Positions 43,295-49,893 of a DNA stretch of 64,000 bases are shown here, piece by piece. The DNA comes from Natranaeroarchaeum sulfidigenes (GTDB lineage: Archaea > Halobacteriota > Halobacteria > Halobacteriales > Natronoarchaeaceae), in contig NZ_CP064786.1 of NCBI RefSeq assembly GCF_017094485.1, positions 1,984,001 through 2,048,000 of the forward strand, in the 5' to 3' direction. Each line of letters begins with the position of its first letter. Positions within the stretch are counted from its first letter, which is position 1. The notes beneath the pieces are model-generated. The model was not told the DNA's origin, ran no database searches, and saw only the letters and a program-made list of their open reading frames with translations. Position numbers and translations under genes: made by a program.

Positions 43295-43597
43295 ATGATG
43301 GCCGACCAACAGTACGAACAGAAACTACGCATCGAACGAAACGAACACTCGTTTGTCGTCGACCACGACAGGCCAGAGCGGACGGCAACTGTACTGATCG
43401 ACGTTGTCGCGTCGCTACGTGATGTCGACCAGACGACACTCGAACCGCTATACAATACGGTTGATCCGGAAGCACTCGGCTCACTCTGTACCAGCACCGA
43501 TTGCTCGCTTCGGATATCGTTCCAGTACGAAGGGTACGCCGTAACGATCTCGGGTGACGGCCGGATCAAGCTCGTCGAAACGTCCGAAGACAAGTAG
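43295..43597 (+). CDS. HalOD1 output domain protein
   Basis: A 100-residue protein made almost wholly of a HalOD1 module, the haloarchaeal output domain 1: LRDVDQTTLEPLYNTVDPEALGSL, then ISFQYEGYAVTISGDGRIKLV. In larger proteins this domain follows sensor or receiver modules; stand-alone copies are common and their output is unknown. Two consecutive ATGs give a one-residue uncertainty in the start. A TATA-like TTTATTAT box is about 65 bases upstream. Confidence 0.78.
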   Translation: MMADQQYEQKLRIERNEHSFVVDHDRPERTATVLIDVVASLRDVDQTTLEPLYNTVDPEALGSLCTSTDCSLRISFQYEGYAVTISGDGRIKLVETSEDK

Positions 43598-43691
43598 ACC
43601 GGTCCGCGGCACTGACCCGACTGCCCAACGTAGTCACGACACGGTTGCAGACACAACGATTATAGTTCCTGCCCGCATGATAGGAAATGGC

Positions 43692-44618
43692 ATGGCTTCT
43701 CCACAGACGGCAAATGCGGGCCACTACCGGATCGGGGAGCCACAGTTACAGCAGGGCTGTTCAGGCATCGAGTGTACCGTCGGCGAGGTTCTTTCTTCGG
43801 ACCTAGTTCTGGTTGCGATCGCAGCGGTTGCGACAATCACCCTTGTCGCGTTCACCTATCTTGCGAGCGCTCGCAGGGAGTGTTCAGAAGAAACCGAGCG
43901 TGTTCGGGCCGAAAAGCAAGCGTTCGGACGCTTCGTGAACGGGATTCACGAACTGCAGCCGTCGACGATGCAACCACAGATGGTGAGCAACGGCGGTGCA
44001 ACGATGAGCCGGACCAACACCGGGCCAGCGTCAACGCAGCTACAGGACGTCTACGAACTGTACGAAACTACCGTAATGGACGTCCCTCACTACGATGCGG
44101 ATTACGGCGAACCCCTGCGGGAAAACATGGCGATCGAACTCGGCGAGGAGGTAACTACAGCGCTCGATACGACATCCGAGTTCACCCCCCAGATCAAACA
44201 GGCCCTCGTACAGAAAGGTACCGAGACAAAAACACGTCGAGAACGCTTTTTGGAAACCCTTGAGGCGGAATCCGATTCCATCCAGCGGACACACGACGCG
44301 CTGGCAAACATCGACCGCCGAGTCGGGGATATCGATGACGGTAGACGCCTCGGGCAGTCCTACGAGGAACTCGAACACCACTGGCGAGAACTGGACGCGC
44401 TGGAAGACGAATGTGAGTCCGTACTAGAACGGCGACAGGGACAGGTCCGTTCCGGAGTTAGCGCGTCACACTGGCGTGGCGACGGTCACAGCCTCTGTGC
44501 ATACCTCTACGATTCGTTACCAGTCGAGTACCCCGCGCTTGCGGAAGGGATACTGCTCTTCGATCGGATCAGGACGACCAAGCGCAAGTTCACGGAATCA
44601 CTGACCCGGCGCGTGTAG
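43692..44618 (+). CDS. Membrane-anchored coiled-coil protein (DUF7260-like)
   Basis: A 308-residue protein with an N-terminal segment, one transmembrane helix (about 38-58, LVLVAIAAVATITLVAFTY), then a long charged helical region with predicted coiled coil (about 60-85 and 180-250). The pattern resembles a haloarchaeal family recalled as DUF7260. Short basic tail. The start is placed at ATG 43692, about 30 bases after a TATA-like ATTATAG box; ATG 43677 is the alternative. Function unknown. Confidence 0.65.
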   Translation: MASPQTANAGHYRIGEPQLQQGCSGIECTVGEVLSSDLVLVAIAAVATITLVAFTYLASARRECSEETERVRAEKQAFGRFVNGIHELQPSTMQPQMVSNGGATMSRTNTGPASTQLQDVYELYETTVMDVPHYDADYGEPLRENMAIELGEEVTTALDTTSEFTPQIKQALVQKGTETKTRRERFLETLEAESDSIQRTHDALANIDRRVGDIDDGRRLGQSYEELEHHWRELDALEDECESVLERRQGQVRSGVSASHWRGDGHSLCAYLYDSLPVEYPALAEGILLFDRIRTTKRKFTESLTRRV

Positions 44619-44880: not shown

Positions 44881-44952
44881 ATGAACGAGCTACGGTCTGG
44901 CGTACGGACACGATGGTCGATACTGATCGCTCGTGAGGAGGGACAGCAATGA
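44881..44952 (+). CDS. Possible 23-codon leader ORF, coupled to the reductase
   Basis: A 23-residue frame (MNELRSGVRTRWSILIAREE and three more) begins about 28 bases after the TATA box, which fits leaderless translation. Its TGA overlaps the ATG of the following gene as ATGA. A strong GGAGG Shine-Dalgarno motif lies within its end, 7 bases before that ATG, unusual for a haloarchaeon. It could couple or attenuate expression of the reductase. The peptide itself resembles no known leader. Confidence 0.35.
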   Translation: MNELRSGVRTRWSILIAREEGQQ

Positions 44953-47360
44953 CGCTTGATAGCCCGGTGTTCGTCGATCCGTCGTGGGTCGAGAAACACA
45001 GTGACGTGACGCTCGTCGACGTCCGAGAACGGCGGGAGTATCGGGATGTCGGACACATAACGGACGCAGTGAGCGTCCCGTTCGACAGCTTTCGTGACCC
45101 ATCAAGCGTGGCAACCGGGATGTTGCCGGGTCGGGACGCGTTCGAGGAGCTACTGGGAGACGCGGGGATCTCGAACGGCGAGACGCTCGTCGCCTACGAC
45201 GACGGGGCGGGCGTCTATGCCGCACGATTCCTGCTGACCGCTGCCGTTTACGGACATGATGGGAACCTCTATCTGGTCGATGGTGGTTTCGAGGCGCTCC
45301 GGGAACGATTCGGTGTCACGAACGACCCGATCGAGCCCGAACCGGCGGTGTACGATGCCAGCGAACCCGACGGTCAGCTCGTCGCGGACCGCGAGGACGT
45401 CGAGGCGGCAGTCGAAGACGAGGAAACGCTCGTCGTCGACACCCGAACCGCAGCGGAGTACGACCACTCCCATGTGCCGACCGCCGTCCAGCTGAGCTGG
45501 GAGACGTTCGTCGACGAGGATGGACGGCTCCGTCCGGTCGACGAGATCGAACCGATTCTCGACGAGCGGGGACTTTCCCCCGAGACGCCGGTCGTCCTCT
45601 ACTGTAACACTGCCAGACGGCTCAGCCATACGTTCACCGTACTGACAGAGCTCGGCTACGAGGACGTCAGCTTCTACGAGGGCAGCCTCACTGACTGGGT
45701 TCGAGCCGAGTCAGATGACTGGGATCCAGAACGGCTCTACGAGCGCGTTCGCGAGGTAGCACCACAGGGGTTCGAGGCGCTTCCCCGCGAACTCGGAGAG
45801 GACGTCTTCGGTCGCCTGCACCTGATCGGTCTGTACACGCAGAAACAGGACGGCTACTTCATGCTGCGGACGAAGGTTCCAAACGGTGTTCTAACTGCTG
45901 CGCAGGCCCGCACCTATGGCGAGATCGTCGACGAGTTCGCCCGCGCACCCGCCGAGTACGGCGGCACCGAACAGAACGCCGAGTTCGGCGACGGTTTTCT
46001 CGACGTGACGACCAGACAGGGTCTGCAGGCCCACTGGGTCCGCGTCGAGGACATGCCCGAGATCTGGGACCGCTACGACGAGGTCGGCCTGACGACGATC
46101 CAGGCCAGTGGGAACACGCTCCGGAACGTCGTCGCCTGTCCCGCGTCAGGGCTGGGGGAGGAGGTCACGGATGTCAGAGCGCTCGGCGAGGGCATCGCCG
46201 ACGCCTTCGAGGGGAACCAGCGCTATGCGAACCTTCCGCGCAAACTCAAGGTGAGTTTGAGCGGCTGTCACGAGAACTGCGGCCGCAGCGAGATTCAGGA
46301 TCTCGGGTTTGTCCCCGCCGTCAAGGACGGTCGTGACGGGTTCCACGTCAAGGTCGGCGGCGGCCTTTCGGATGGTCCACGAGCCGCGACAGACCTCGGC
46401 GTCTTCCTCGAACCCGAGCAGGTAGAGCCGTTGACCCTCGCAGCTGCCGACCTGTTCATCGAACAGGGCAGCTACATCGACACGGCAGTGAATCGCCTGA
46501 AGTTCATCGTCGAGGAGTACGGTATCGACGGGTTCCGCGAGGAGCTACAGCGGTACGTCGACTTCGACTTCGAGGAGGCCGGGGAGGACCTCACCACGAG
46601 CTACCGGGGCGACCACGTCGGCGTCCACCAGACGGAGGACGGCTACTACGTCGGCCTCAACCTGCCGACCGGGCGCATGCGTGGCGAGGAGCTGGTCGAA
46701 CTGGCAGACCTCGCAGAACGGTACGGGAGCGGCGAGCTCAGGCTGACCGCGAACCAGAACGTGCTCGTCGCGGGCGTCCGCGAGGAGACGCTCGACGACC
46801 TGCTGGCCGAGCCGCTGCTGGAGCGCTACAGTCCCGATCCGGGGCCGTTCACCCGCGGGATCGTCACCTGCACCGGCGCGGAGTTCTGCAAGTACGGCGT
46901 CGTCGAAACTAAATCCCGCGGGATCGAGTGGGCCCGTACGCTCGATTCGTGGCTCGCGGAGACCGACCGCCTCGACGAGTCCGATCTTCCCGACGCCGTC
47001 CGAGTCCACATGTCCGGCTGTTCAGCCTCGTGTGCTCAGCCCCAGATCGGTGATATCGCCATGCGCGGCGAGGCAAAACGCACCCCGGAAGGGACGAAAG
47101 ATGCCGCGGATGTCGGCCTCGGCGGGGACCTCGGCCGGGGGGCGTTTGCCGACTGGATCGCCGGGTCGGTCGTCCTCGATGAGGTCCCCGAGGGGATAAA
47201 ACGCCTCGTGACGGCGTATGCAACCGACGCTGGCGACGAGGCGTTCTCGGAGTGGACCGAGCGCGTTCCGGATTCGGACCTGCGGTCGCTGATCGAGGGC
47301 GAGGCCGGACCGGAGACGATCGTACAGGGCGGCGACCACGTTACGACGGAGGTGAACTGA
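44949..47360 (+). CDS. Double-rhodanese/siroheme sulfite (or nitrite) reductase fusion
   Basis: An 803-residue fusion. Residues 1-255 are two rhodanese domains: the first has Asp (D84, AYDDGAG) where the sulfur-carrying Cys would be, the second has C219 in LYCNTARRL. Residues 280-800 are a complete siroheme/4Fe-4S reductase with duplicated ferredoxin-like halves; the cluster cysteines are C641, C647, C691 and C695 (CTGAEFC and SGCSASC). A related C440/C444 pair stands in the first half. The fusion suggests a sulfur-linked role: sulfite reduction fed or followed by sulfur transfer. Nitrite reduction is the alternative. The FrhB gene begins two bases later. Confidence 0.85.
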   Translation: MTLDSPVFVDPSWVEKHSDVTLVDVRERREYRDVGHITDAVSVPFDSFRDPSSVATGMLPGRDAFEELLGDAGISNGETLVAYDDGAGVYAARFLLTAAVYGHDGNLYLVDGGFEALRERFGVTNDPIEPEPAVYDASEPDGQLVADREDVEAAVEDEETLVVDTRTAAEYDHSHVPTAVQLSWETFVDEDGRLRPVDEIEPILDERGLSPETPVVLYCNTARRLSHTFTVLTELGYEDVSFYEGSLTDWVRAESDDWDPERLYERVREVAPQGFEALPRELGEDVFGRLHLIGLYTQKQDGYFMLRTKVPNGVLTAAQARTYGEIVDEFARAPAEYGGTEQNAEFGDGFLDVTTRQGLQAHWVRVEDMPEIWDRYDEVGLTTIQASGNTLRNVVACPASGLGEEVTDVRALGEGIADAFEGNQRYANLPRKLKVSLSGCHENCGRSEIQDLGFVPAVKDGRDGFHVKVGGGLSDGPRAATDLGVFLEPEQVEPLTLAAADLFIEQGSYIDTAVNRLKFIVEEYGIDGFREELQRYVDFDFEEAGEDLTTSYRGDHVGVHQTEDGYYVGLNLPTGRMRGEELVELADLAERYGSGELRLTANQNVLVAGVREETLDDLLAEPLLERYSPDPGPFTRGIVTCTGAEFCKYGVVETKSRGIEWARTLDSWLAETDRLDESDLPDAVRVHMSGCSASCAQPQIGDIAMRGEAKRTPEGTKDAADVGLGGDLGRGAFADWIAGSVVLDEVPEGIKRLVTAYATDAGDEAFSEWTERVPDSDLRSLIEGEAGPETIVQGGDHVTTEVN

Positions 47361-47361
47361 G

Positions 47362-48615
47362 ATGTCGAAACCCAACCCCGGCGTTCCGAGCAGTACAGCG
47401 AGCAATCGATCCGTTCCGAGCAAGGGCGGGGATCCCCGCGAGCAGGCCGCCGAATCCGCCGCACCACCCGGCAAGACGTGGTTCCGCGATCTCGACGAGG
47501 CGGTCATCGAATCCGATCGCTGTACGCAGTGTGGGACCTGTGTCGCCGCCTGTCCCGCCGATTCCATCGGGATCGATAGCGAGATGGAGCGGCCGACCCT
47601 CGTGAAGATGTGTACTGGCTGCTCGCGCTGCTGGGATTACTGCCCGCGCAGCGGTCTGCGCTATGAGCGCCTGATCAGGGAGGTACAGGAGGCCGTCCCC
47701 GAAGACGTCGGGGCGACCTACAGCGCCCGCGCCGTCGACGAGGCGGCAGCAGACGCCGGGCAGGACGGCGGCGTCGTTACGGCGCTGCTCGCCGAACTGC
47801 TCGATGCAGGCGAGATCGACGGGGCAATCGTCGCTACGGACAGCGACGAACCGCTCCACGGTGAGACTTACCTGGCGACGACCCGCGAGGAACTCGTCGA
47901 AACTGCCGGGAGCTTCTACAACCAGACGATGCAGGCAGGTCGGATCGCGGAACTGATCGAGGGGGCCGATATCGAGGACTCCGAAATCGCAGTCGTCGGG
48001 ACGCCCTGCGTGATCGAGGGCATAACGGCGCTCTCCGAATACGGCTACGAGGGCGAACTCGACGAGGTCGTCCTGACGATCTCGCTGATGTGTACCCGCG
48101 CGTTCGAGTCGCGGCGGCTCCGTGATGCCATCTCGGAGCTGGGCGTCGATCCCGAGACGGTGGCCAAACTCGATGTCGACGGCGGGACCCTCTTTGCCTA
48201 CGACGCCGACGGCGAGGTCCTGTTCGACCGGGACGTCGATGCGTTCGGCCACGCGGGGCTGAAGGGCTGTGACGAATGTGCGGACTTCGTCGGCGGCACG
48301 GCCGACATCTCCGCGGGCAGCGTCGGAAGCGGGGACGGCAGGACGACGCTGATCGCCCGGACCGATCGCGGCGAGGGTGCTGTCAAACAGGCCGGTGACG
48401 CGCTGGAGACCAATGATCTGGAGCAGGAGCCGGTTCTCGACAAGGTGCGTTCGTGGAACGAGAAGCGCGCTCGCTCGATCATCCCACGCGAGTACGACCC
48501 GGAAGGAGACCTCGATATCCCGCACGTTGACCATCACGAGGCCTACGACGGCACCGATCGGGAGGCGCAGCCGCTCAATCCGGCACGCGTCCACCAGTAC
48601 GAGGAGTGGTGTTAA
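47362..48615 (+). CDS. FrhB-type F420 oxidoreductase with two 4Fe-4S clusters
   Basis: A 417-residue protein of the F420 hydrogenase/dehydrogenase beta subunit family. Two ferredoxin motifs lie in the N-terminal part, C54-x2-C57-x2-C60-x3-C64 and C84-x2-C87-x2-C90-x3-C94. The FrhB domain follows, with QDGGVVTALLAELL, GTPCVIEGI, and CDECADFVGGTADISAGSVG near the C-terminus. It should accept electrons from reduced F420 through FAD and pass them to an iron-sulfur partner. With the reductase gene one base upstream, the partner is obvious. The first 35 residues are Ser/Pro-rich and disordered. Confidence 0.88.
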   Translation: MSKPNPGVPSSTASNRSVPSKGGDPREQAAESAAPPGKTWFRDLDEAVIESDRCTQCGTCVAACPADSIGIDSEMERPTLVKMCTGCSRCWDYCPRSGLRYERLIREVQEAVPEDVGATYSARAVDEAAADAGQDGGVVTALLAELLDAGEIDGAIVATDSDEPLHGETYLATTREELVETAGSFYNQTMQAGRIAELIEGADIEDSEIAVVGTPCVIEGITALSEYGYEGELDEVVLTISLMCTRAFESRRLRDAISELGVDPETVAKLDVDGGTLFAYDADGEVLFDRDVDAFGHAGLKGCDECADFVGGTADISAGSVGSGDGRTTLIARTDRGEGAVKQAGDALETNDLEQEPVLDKVRSWNEKRARSIIPREYDPEGDLDIPHVDHHEAYDGTDREAQPLNPARVHQYEEWC

Positions 48616-48720: not shown

Positions 48721-49893
48721 ATGGACTCGCGTCGTGTCTGGGTCGTTGCGATCTTTCTGTTCGTGATGGGCGATGCTGTCGCGACGCAGATACGGGGCGC
48801 ACTTCTGGAGAGCTTTCAGTCGTCCTTCGGTGTCTCGGAAGCCCTTCTCGGACTGGTTGCGCCTGCCGGGACGGTTGGGTTCGTCGTTTCGGTCCTCGCG
48901 ATCGGGTTCGTCTCGGGACGGATCGATCTCAAGCGGACACTGCTAATCGGTGTCGCAGCCACGGTCGTCTCGTTGCTCGTGATGAGCGTCGCTCCAGTCT
49001 ACTGGCTGTTTCTTGCTGTGATGGTCGGACAGGGCGCGGCAGCCGGGGCCTTCCGCGGCGTCGACCGCCCGATCCTCTCGCATCTCTATCCGAGTCGCCG
49101 GGGGCGTATCTTCGCGCTGTACTCGCTGGCGTGGGCACTCGGTGCGGTGACGGGTCCGGTGCTGGTAAACGCCGTTCTCTCGGTAACTGACTGGCGCGTC
49201 ACTTACGCGATACTCGGCCTGTTTTTCGTCCCGATCGGGCTGCTCATCTGGCAAACCGAGCTCCCGGCCAGCACTGATAACGAACAGTCGCTCTCGCTGG
49301 ACGCGCTACGGACGCTGGTGCGGCGTCCGGCGGTGCTCGGGTCTATCGGCTGTATGGCACTTCTCGGCGGGATCGAGGGTATCTTCTTCACGTGGCTGCC
49401 ATACTACGCGAGCACGATCATTCCGCGGGACCTCGCTAACCTGCTGCTATCGACGTTCCTGCTGGCGTACATCCCCGGTCGCATACTGAACACGTGGATC
49501 ATCGAGCGGGTGAACTATCTCTACCTGACCTTCGGATTGACGCTGGCATCGATCCCCGTACTGCTGGTCACGTTCAGCGGCATCGGCGGATGGGCCCTTT
49601 TCATGTTGGTTTTCCTCGCCGGGTTTCTGATCTCGGGGTTGTTTCCGACCATCCTGTCGTTTGCAGTCGAAGCCAGCCCCGAGTACAGCGGTCCGATCAG
49701 CGCGATGACGACCGGCGGGACGTACACGGGAATTGCGCTTGCCCCGCTCGGTGTCGGCGTCGTCGCTGAACTCGTGGATATTCAGACCGCGATGTATCTG
49801 ACCCTCGGTCTCGCTATTGCATTGCTGATCGGGACGGTCGTGACGTGGGCCGCGACACGTGGCTCCGGCAGGGCCGGTATCCCCTCGGAGTGA
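48721..49893 (+). CDS. MFS transporter
   Basis: A 390-residue major facilitator with 12 predicted spans. The N-terminal half has GFVSGRIDLKRTLLIG, the loop 2-3 conserved motif of MFS proteins, and AAGAFRGVDRPILSHLYPSRRGR; the second half follows after a central loop (TDNEQSLSLDALRTLVRR). The substrate is unknown. It lies 105 bp after the FrhB gene in the same direction, so a link with sulfite, sulfonate or nitrite handling is conceivable but unproven. Confidence 0.83.
   Translation: MDSRRVWVVAIFLFVMGDAVATQIRGALLESFQSSFGVSEALLGLVAPAGTVGFVVSVLAIGFVSGRIDLKRTLLIGVAATVVSLLVMSVAPVYWLFLAVMVGQGAAAGAFRGVDRPILSHLYPSRRGRIFALYSLAWALGAVTGPVLVNAVLSVTDWRVTYAILGLFFVPIGLLIWQTELPASTDNEQSLSLDALRTLVRRPAVLGSIGCMALLGGIEGIFFTWLPYYASTIIPRDLANLLLSTFLLAYIPGRILNTWIIERVNYLYLTFGLTLASIPVLLVTFSGIGGWALFMLVFLAGFLISGLFPTILSFAVEASPEYSGPISAMTTGGTYTGIALAPLGVGVVAELVDIQTAMYLTLGLAIALLIGTVVTWAATRGSGRAGIPSE

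Follow-up and report, generated by a model that had tools for sequence, protein, structure and literature searches.

The stretch of DNA analysed here (the window) consists of 64,000 nucleotides of the complete 3.04 Mb genome of Natranaeroarchaeum sulfidigenes. Our subject is a pair of adjacent genes on its forward strand, one for a rhodanese-rhodanese-siroheme reductase and one for an FrhB-family protein, which we propose to encode an F420-dependent sulfite reductase with a built-in sulfurtransferase (Table 1). A single base separates the two open reading frames (ORFs): the stop codon TGA occupies 47358-47360, g stands at 47361, and the ATG of the second gene begins at 47362, in agreement with the coordinates and the gap given by a first-pass annotation that had been made from the sequence alone.

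Table 1. Features of the gene pair. Positions are those of the window; clades A and B are the reductase clades described in the text.
Feature	Position	Strand	Basis
Rhodanese-rhodanese-siroheme sulfite/nitrite reductase, 803 amino acids (aFsr-alpha with fused sulfurtransferase)	44949..47360	+	Pfam, NCBIfam, PDB, AlphaFold/Foldseek
N-terminal rhodanese-like domain, active-site Cys missing	44949..45308	+	Pfam; structural likeness to tandem thiosulfate sulfurtransferases
Second rhodanese domain, active loop C219-N-T-A-R-R-L-S	45393..45704	+	Pfam; invariant in 26/26
Cys219 codon (predicted catalytic)	45603..45605	+	Sole Cys of the rhodanese part; kept in 26/26
NirA/aSir-type siroheme reductase part, residues 260-785	45726..47303	+	Pfam, NCBIfam, PDB, Foldseek; trees
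Anion-binding R356, R392, K432, K434	46014..46250 (codon starts 46014, 46122, 46242, 46248)	+	Invariant in clades A and B
Extra Cys triad C397/C440/C444, N-terminal half of the reductase	46137..46280	+	Nearly all-or-none across the family
Siroheme [4Fe-4S] ligands C641, C647, C691, C695	46869..47033	+	No exception among aligned rows
FrhB-family predicted F420H2:FAD/[4Fe-4S] electron-input subunit, 417 amino acids (aFsr-beta)	47362..48615	+	Pfam, NCBIfam, PDB, Foldseek
Ferredoxin domain, two [4Fe-4S] motifs (C54, C57, C60, C64; C84, C87, C90, C94)	47503..47652	+	Pfam; alignment
FrhB core, flavin adenine dinucleotide (FAD) site and cluster 1 (C216, C244, C303, C306)	47716..48426	+	Pfam, Foldseek, alignment
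C-terminal tail ...LNPARVHQYEEWC, last residue invariant Cys417 (codon 48610-48612)	48547..48612	+	31/31 clade A, 2/2 vent archaea, 0/14 clade B

Pfam finds in the first protein two rhodanese stretches (PF00581, 1e-30) together with NIR_SIR (9e-46) and NIR_SIR_ferr (5e-38); the double NIR_SIR_ferr/NIR_SIR repeat is complete, which is the double-length NirA/aSir type, and Pfam reports no Fer4 domain in this protein. The best PDB matches are NirA and nitrite reductases (NiR; 2e-76) and thiosulfate sulfurtransferases. The AlphaFold model, with a predicted local distance difference test (pLDDT) score of 85, retrieves plant NiR, Mycobacterium tuberculosis NirA, sulfite reductases (SiRs) and tandem rhodaneses by Foldseek. 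Residues 260-785 share the fold of assimilatory nitrite and sulfite reductases (1zj8, 2akj, 3b0g; haloarchaeal NasD-type enzymes) with template modelling scores of 0.82-0.84 by target. The cluster and siroheme ligands are in common with ferredoxin-dependent NirA, whereas the dedicated FrhB electron-input subunit and the N-terminal rhodaneses are found only on the side of the present pair. The four cysteines that had been named as siroheme/[4Fe-4S] ligands are invariant in all aligned homologues.

It had also been suggested that the two genes represent the parts of methanogen Fsr in split form, and this view has to be revised. The pair shares with Fsr an FrhB-type F420H2 oxidase having two N-terminal [4Fe-4S] clusters, a siroheme-[4Fe-4S] reductase and the four anion-binding residues. 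Fsr, however, is one chain whose single-length Dsr-like reductase contains an inserted ferredoxin domain, whereas here we find two chains, a double-length NirA-type reductase without that insertion, rhodaneses and a C-terminal Cys. In the N-terminal half of the reductase, C397/C440/C444 mirror the positions of the C-terminal-half [4Fe-4S] ligands in the NirA fold. In nearly all rows of the family these three residues are kept or lost jointly (CCC, or none of them as in NSS, NAS, SDS, NNA, STE and SSW; one row has CSC), and a second cluster or some other cofactor may be bound by them.

The double rhodanese at the N-terminus had been recognised previously, and we add that its first domain has no Cys at all, C219 being the only Cys in the whole rhodanese part. 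The loop C219-NTARRLS is invariant in 26/26, and the segment yCNTARRLSHTFTVL can be aligned with yCRIGERSSHTWFVL from SseA/CysA of M. tuberculosis. The features of a tandem rhodanese, namely two domains, a Cys in the second and a six-residue loop, are all present. The two-domain fold with Cys only in the second domain is shared with the tandem thiosulfate sulfurtransferases (M. tuberculosis SseA/CysA2, bovine rhodanese, RhdA); the loops, CNTARRLSHT here and CRIGERSSHT there, are likewise similar, and the difference is that the present module is fused to a reductase. The loop thus resembles those of thiosulfate sulfurtransferases, and it is this likeness on which thiosulfate as the putative donor rests. 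Stand-alone tandem rhodaneses that carry this LYCNTARRL motif (loci L144-L154; 42-49% identity) occur in haloarchaea and are the likely source of the fused module. Several of them are arranged head-to-head with another tandem rhodanese, which differs from them.

The second protein matches FrhB_FdhB_N/C (1e-21, 4e-31) and a Fer4 dicluster in Pfam, so that the FrhB protein with two [4Fe-4S] motifs described in the first-pass annotation is well founded; we add a third motif (C216, C244, C303, C306) and the terminal Cys417. All 12 cluster Cys residues, belonging to three clusters, are invariant in 47/47 homologues, and the Cys set of cluster 1 is non-canonical (PC...C...CxxC), as in Fsr. In NCBIfam the best matches are FrhB, FpoF and the F420-reducing hydrogenase beta subunit, all under cut-off. 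PDB matches comprise Fsr (3e-41), the F420-reducing CODH component and FrhB, the N-terminal part of Fsr and the CODH component being nearest (1e-41 to 1e-38). These kinships point to F420H2 as the probable electron donor. The ferredoxin-dependent HCAR also belongs to the FrhB fold, and a haloarchaeal ferredoxin is essential in nitrate assimilation (as cited in PMC8305020), so it may be supposed that ferredoxin feeds the FrhB subunit as in HCAR and that this subunit serves as the adaptor of a sulfite reductase that depends on ferredoxin. We consider this less likely, and indeed improbable: among the Foldseek matches, which include FrhB and Fsr, F420-using proteins show 24-32% identity against 17-18% for HCAR; HCAR is not among the PDB sequence matches of this protein; plain SiRs of the same fold draw electrons from ferredoxin without any FrhB; and genes for CofD, CofE, CofG and an NADPH:F420 reductase (NpdG) are present in the genome, all above cut-off.

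We have surveyed 292 genomes of the class and read additional loci from other collections, giving 31 distinct fusion loci in total. The full fusion is found in 25 of the 292 genomes, belonging to four of the sampled families. In the other collections its carriers include Natronococcus occultus (plasmid 2) and Halomontanus rarus, along with Natrinema, Natronoglomus, Natrarchaeobius, Natronobiforma, Halorhabdus, Halovenus and Natronomonas species. The pairing cannot be attributed to chance, because an FrhB ORF lies immediately downstream of the fusion in 25/25 survey cases and at 31/31 distinct loci; the two remain separate ORFs at every locus read. On plasmid 2 of Natronococcus occultus (L073 6001-11817), the pair is located directly upstream of nosZ and nosD. 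A third conserved gene was also sought at these loci and was rejected, since synteny beyond FrhB is found at the genus level only. In the window, the genes upstream of the pair encode a HalOD1 output-domain protein (43295-43597) and an overlapping DUF7260 protein (43554-44618); a major facilitator superfamily transporter with weak likeness to TsgA (48721-49893) begins 105 bases past the pair and is common only to the locus from the same genus.

Two trees of the reductases were constructed, one from a careful search and a second, quick one with more rows, both made up of sequences other than the characterised plant and mycobacterial enzymes. The comparison likewise does not extend to the bacterial homologues of aFsr-beta that PMC3448663 lists from Rubrobacter and Thermobaculum. 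In the careful tree the fused reductases form a single clade, A, with support 100/100. Clade B adjoins A (99/97); its members have no rhodanese and are coupled to a longer FrhB. Clade C, the nas-type nitrite reductases, stands outside A and B, includes a gene adjoining nasA, and has no FrhB at any locus read, while clade A loci show no linkage to nitrate assimilation. In the quick tree A, B and C each hold together, and a vent-archaeon sequence joins the A side on a long branch. The reductase phylogeny that had been recommended as a check therefore separates the fused enzymes from the nas-type reductases within this sampling and reveals beside them a rhodanese-free sister system, B, which the first-pass annotation had missed together with the C-terminal Cys of the FrhB subunit. 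From the tree and the pairing pattern, the coupling with FrhB probably predates the split of A and B, and the rhodanese fusion probably arose once, at the base of A. In several genomes clade B is situated near a gene read as ftsY, along with genes for prefoldin, eIF6 and L31e, which is a core location. The FrhB proteins of clade B (L062, L074, L100-L117 and others) have a long N-terminal extension, often with the Cys motifs CSPDTCTCGE and GCGCG, that is absent from A. Both A and B regions were read in nine genomes; in the genome of the window, A is the only FrhB-coupled reductase, and a clade C gene and NasA are encoded elsewhere.

The patchy spread of A (25/292 genomes) beside the widespread B suggests an accessory job, for which sulfite detoxification is one candidate: sulfite would be removed by reduction, or the rhodanese would form thiosulfate from a persulfide and sulfite. 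Methanogen Fsr does protect against sulfite (PMC10229431). Haloarchaea, however, do not have the sulfite-sensitive Mcr, the operon contains no stress regulator, and the clade A pair is the only reductase of its kind in the present genome; we regard detoxification as very unlikely.

With regard to the substrate, R356, R392, K432 and K434 are invariant across A and B, and their equivalents bind sulfite in MjFsr (PMC10229431). At position 434, plant NiR and three clade C rows (L076, L178 and L185, the nasA-linked branch) have Asn. As a clean marker for distinguishing sulfite from nitrite this position was rejected, for Lys occurs also in most clade C rows; Lys at this position is supportive of sulfite, not decisive. 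In a vent archaeon, Candidatus Pyrohabitans (L119 2643-6049), genes for SiR, for FrhB with a C-terminal Cys and for a CysH-type reductase of 3'-phosphoadenosine 5'-phosphosulfate (PAPS) or adenosine 5'-phosphosulfate (APS) stand in a row, although the SiR reading frame is interrupted in the assembly. This row is a candidate operon for F420-dependent assimilatory sulfate reduction and points to sulfite as the substrate. L119 and L118, a second vent-archaeon locus, come from metagenome bins and have nearly the same FrhB; "Thermococcus" as a bin label is doubtful. Relatives without FrhB are found in cys operons of bacteria and of an archaeal family (f18) of the same phylum.

The same evidence bears on the possibility that the pair is an F420H2-dependent nitrite reductase producing ammonia, in which the rhodanese would be a passenger or would protect the siroheme from sulfur species. 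The best family name for the reductase is ferredoxin-nitrite reductase; FsrII of anaerobic methanotrophic archaea (ANME) is an F420H2-dependent nitrite reductase (PMC9295563); and one clade A operon is that upstream of nosZ. Nitrite is nevertheless unlikely as the main substrate because a separate clade C/NasA system exists in the same genome; the residue at 434 is Lys and not the Asn of the nasA-linked branch and plant NiR, the vent-archaeon operon contains cysH, and the rhodanese would have no evident place in nitrite reduction. We judge a nitrite reductase to be quite unlikely.

Searches of the genome found no ATP sulfurylase (PF01747) and no full CysH. The PAPS-reductase family (PF01507) gave only CysD-like and NcsA proteins; these two matches were rejected as PAPS reductases, one being NcsA and the other a CysD-like protein that scores well under its cut-offs. 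With neither enzyme found, derivation of sulfite from thiosulfate makes sense.

On the basis of these comparisons, the reading to which we assign a probability of about 0.5 is that the two proteins form one soluble complex, an F420H2-dependent sulfite reductase with a built-in thiosulfate sulfurtransferase. The NADPH:F420 reductase encoded in the genome would replenish F420H2 at the cost of NADPH; F420H2 would donate a hydride to the FAD of the FrhB subunit, and the three [4Fe-4S] clusters of that subunit would relay the electrons to the reductase's siroheme-[4Fe-4S] centre. Thiosulfate would be cleaved by the active rhodanese domain, the sulfane sulfur staying on Cys219 as a persulfide and the freed sulfite being reduced to sulfide at the adjacent siroheme; the sulfane sulfur would leave via thiols, possibly via Cys417. 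F420H2-driven sulfite reduction, as put forward in the first-pass annotation, thus stays an inferred activity and is the best-supported reading, in view of the anion-binding residues, the kinship of the FrhB subunit, the F420 genes and the SiR-FrhB-cysH row.

Several points weigh against this complex. Its function is purely predicted for every member, and rhodanese domains may also use 3-mercaptopyruvate or protein persulfides. The model of the FrhB subunit has a pLDDT of 62, with low confidence in the ferredoxin part and in the tail (<50 for the latter). The top NCBIfam name for the reductase is ferredoxin-nitrite reductase, with scores far under cut-off (NF007125/NF007126: 361.6 of 594 and 244.8 of 523 bits), and one clade A copy adjoins nosZ. 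Finally, ANME FsrII, which has an F420 module, reduces only nitrite with F420H2 (PMC9295563), so that redox tuning cannot be read from the sequence.

The last residue of the FrhB subunit deserves separate consideration. It is Cys in 31/31 clade A proteins, with a tail consensus ...NPAR..QYE[ER]WC, and His in 14/14 clade B proteins. Over the last 12 positions the mean frequency of the top residue is 0.98, against 0.74 over residues 41-417. The other conserved Cys residues of the subunit are all cluster ligands, so Cys417 is its single conserved non-ligand Cys, and no second conserved Cys was seen in the tail. The two vent-archaeon homologues (L118/L119), which have no fused rhodanese, also end in Cys (...NPARVYQYAEVC). 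A strict linkage of the C-terminal Cys to the rhodanese was accordingly rejected, and because the tail occurs there without the fusion, it is probably the older of the two. By analogy with DsrC, with which it shares a conserved Cys at or near the C-terminus on a tail and for which no homology is claimed, Cys417 suggests a sulfur-carrying arm; unlike DsrC, the FrhB tail lacks a second conserved Cys, and the placement of the arm in the model is of low confidence.

Cys417 raises the possibility of a relay on the product side, in which the siroheme would reduce sulfite to S0, Cys417 would act as a swinging arm, and sulfur would be handed over to Cys219 for tRNA thiolation, Fe-S clusters and cysteine. 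We regard such delivery as unlikely. The invariance of the terminal Cys and the conservation of its tail speak for it, and a 2026 paper has reported S0 as the direct product of assimilatory SiRs (PMC13188885); the same paper, however, notes that a part for DsrC in the assimilatory pathway lacks evidence, the vent archaea carry the tail without a fused rhodanese, and the position of the tail relative to the siroheme comes from a region with pLDDT <50. A related internal relay, which we likewise regard as unlikely, would have Cys417 enter the siroheme site, accept S0-level sulfur there in the manner of DsrC with DsrAB, and trade it with the fused rhodanese. Thiosulfate or sulfite would then be converted, with F420H2 as the reductant, to sulfane sulfur bound to protein, and no free sulfide would appear.

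The first-pass annotation knew of no characterised haloarchaeal enzyme with this layout, and its novelty was overstated, as three earlier reports precede it. A split, two-subunit F420H2-dependent assimilatory-type sulfite reductase, aFsr, had been predicted for haloarchaea (Susanti & Mukhopadhyay 2012, PMC3448663). Both of its gene-level features, the double-length aSir/NirA subunit and the neighbouring Fsr-N-like FrhB subunit with two N-terminal [4Fe-4S] clusters, are found here on adjacent genes in a haloarchaeon, and for its donor and substrate the cof genes, NpdG and the SiR-FrhB-CysH operon are supporting evidence. The term rhodanese does not appear in the text of that paper, and the C-terminal Cys tail and the division into A and B are new here. 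The rhodanese-NirA fusion was counted in 2024 in 19 of 529 halobacterial NirA proteins, in a study which suggested that it acts in sulfur metabolism (PMC11237513); cluster 195.2 of that study is apparently the same fusion, and the passages found there do not mention the FrhB partner, the F420 link or the C-terminal Cys. In haloarchaea the route from sulfate through APS and PAPS to sulfite has been reported missing, and two separate enzymes have been proposed, a sulfurtransferase yielding sulfite from thiosulfate and a sulfite reductase carrying it on to sulfide (PMC3402447); the fusion would join both proposed steps in one protein. The literature searched yielded no report of the strictly paired combination, of the division into clades A, B and C, of an SiR-FrhB-CysH operon or of the C-terminal Cys. 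The parts being known and the combination not found there, we therefore class the pair as a variant of aFsr in which the combination and the C-terminal Cys are new.

Only one F420-dependent reaction is reported for haloarchaea (PMC8305020). The fusion, paired with a predicted F420H2 oxidase, would tie haloarchaeal F420 use and sulfide formation to a single two-gene operon, which is amenable to knock-out or expression in tractable haloarchaea. Its C-terminal Cys offers a sharp test of whether assimilatory-type reductases pass sulfur to a carrier.

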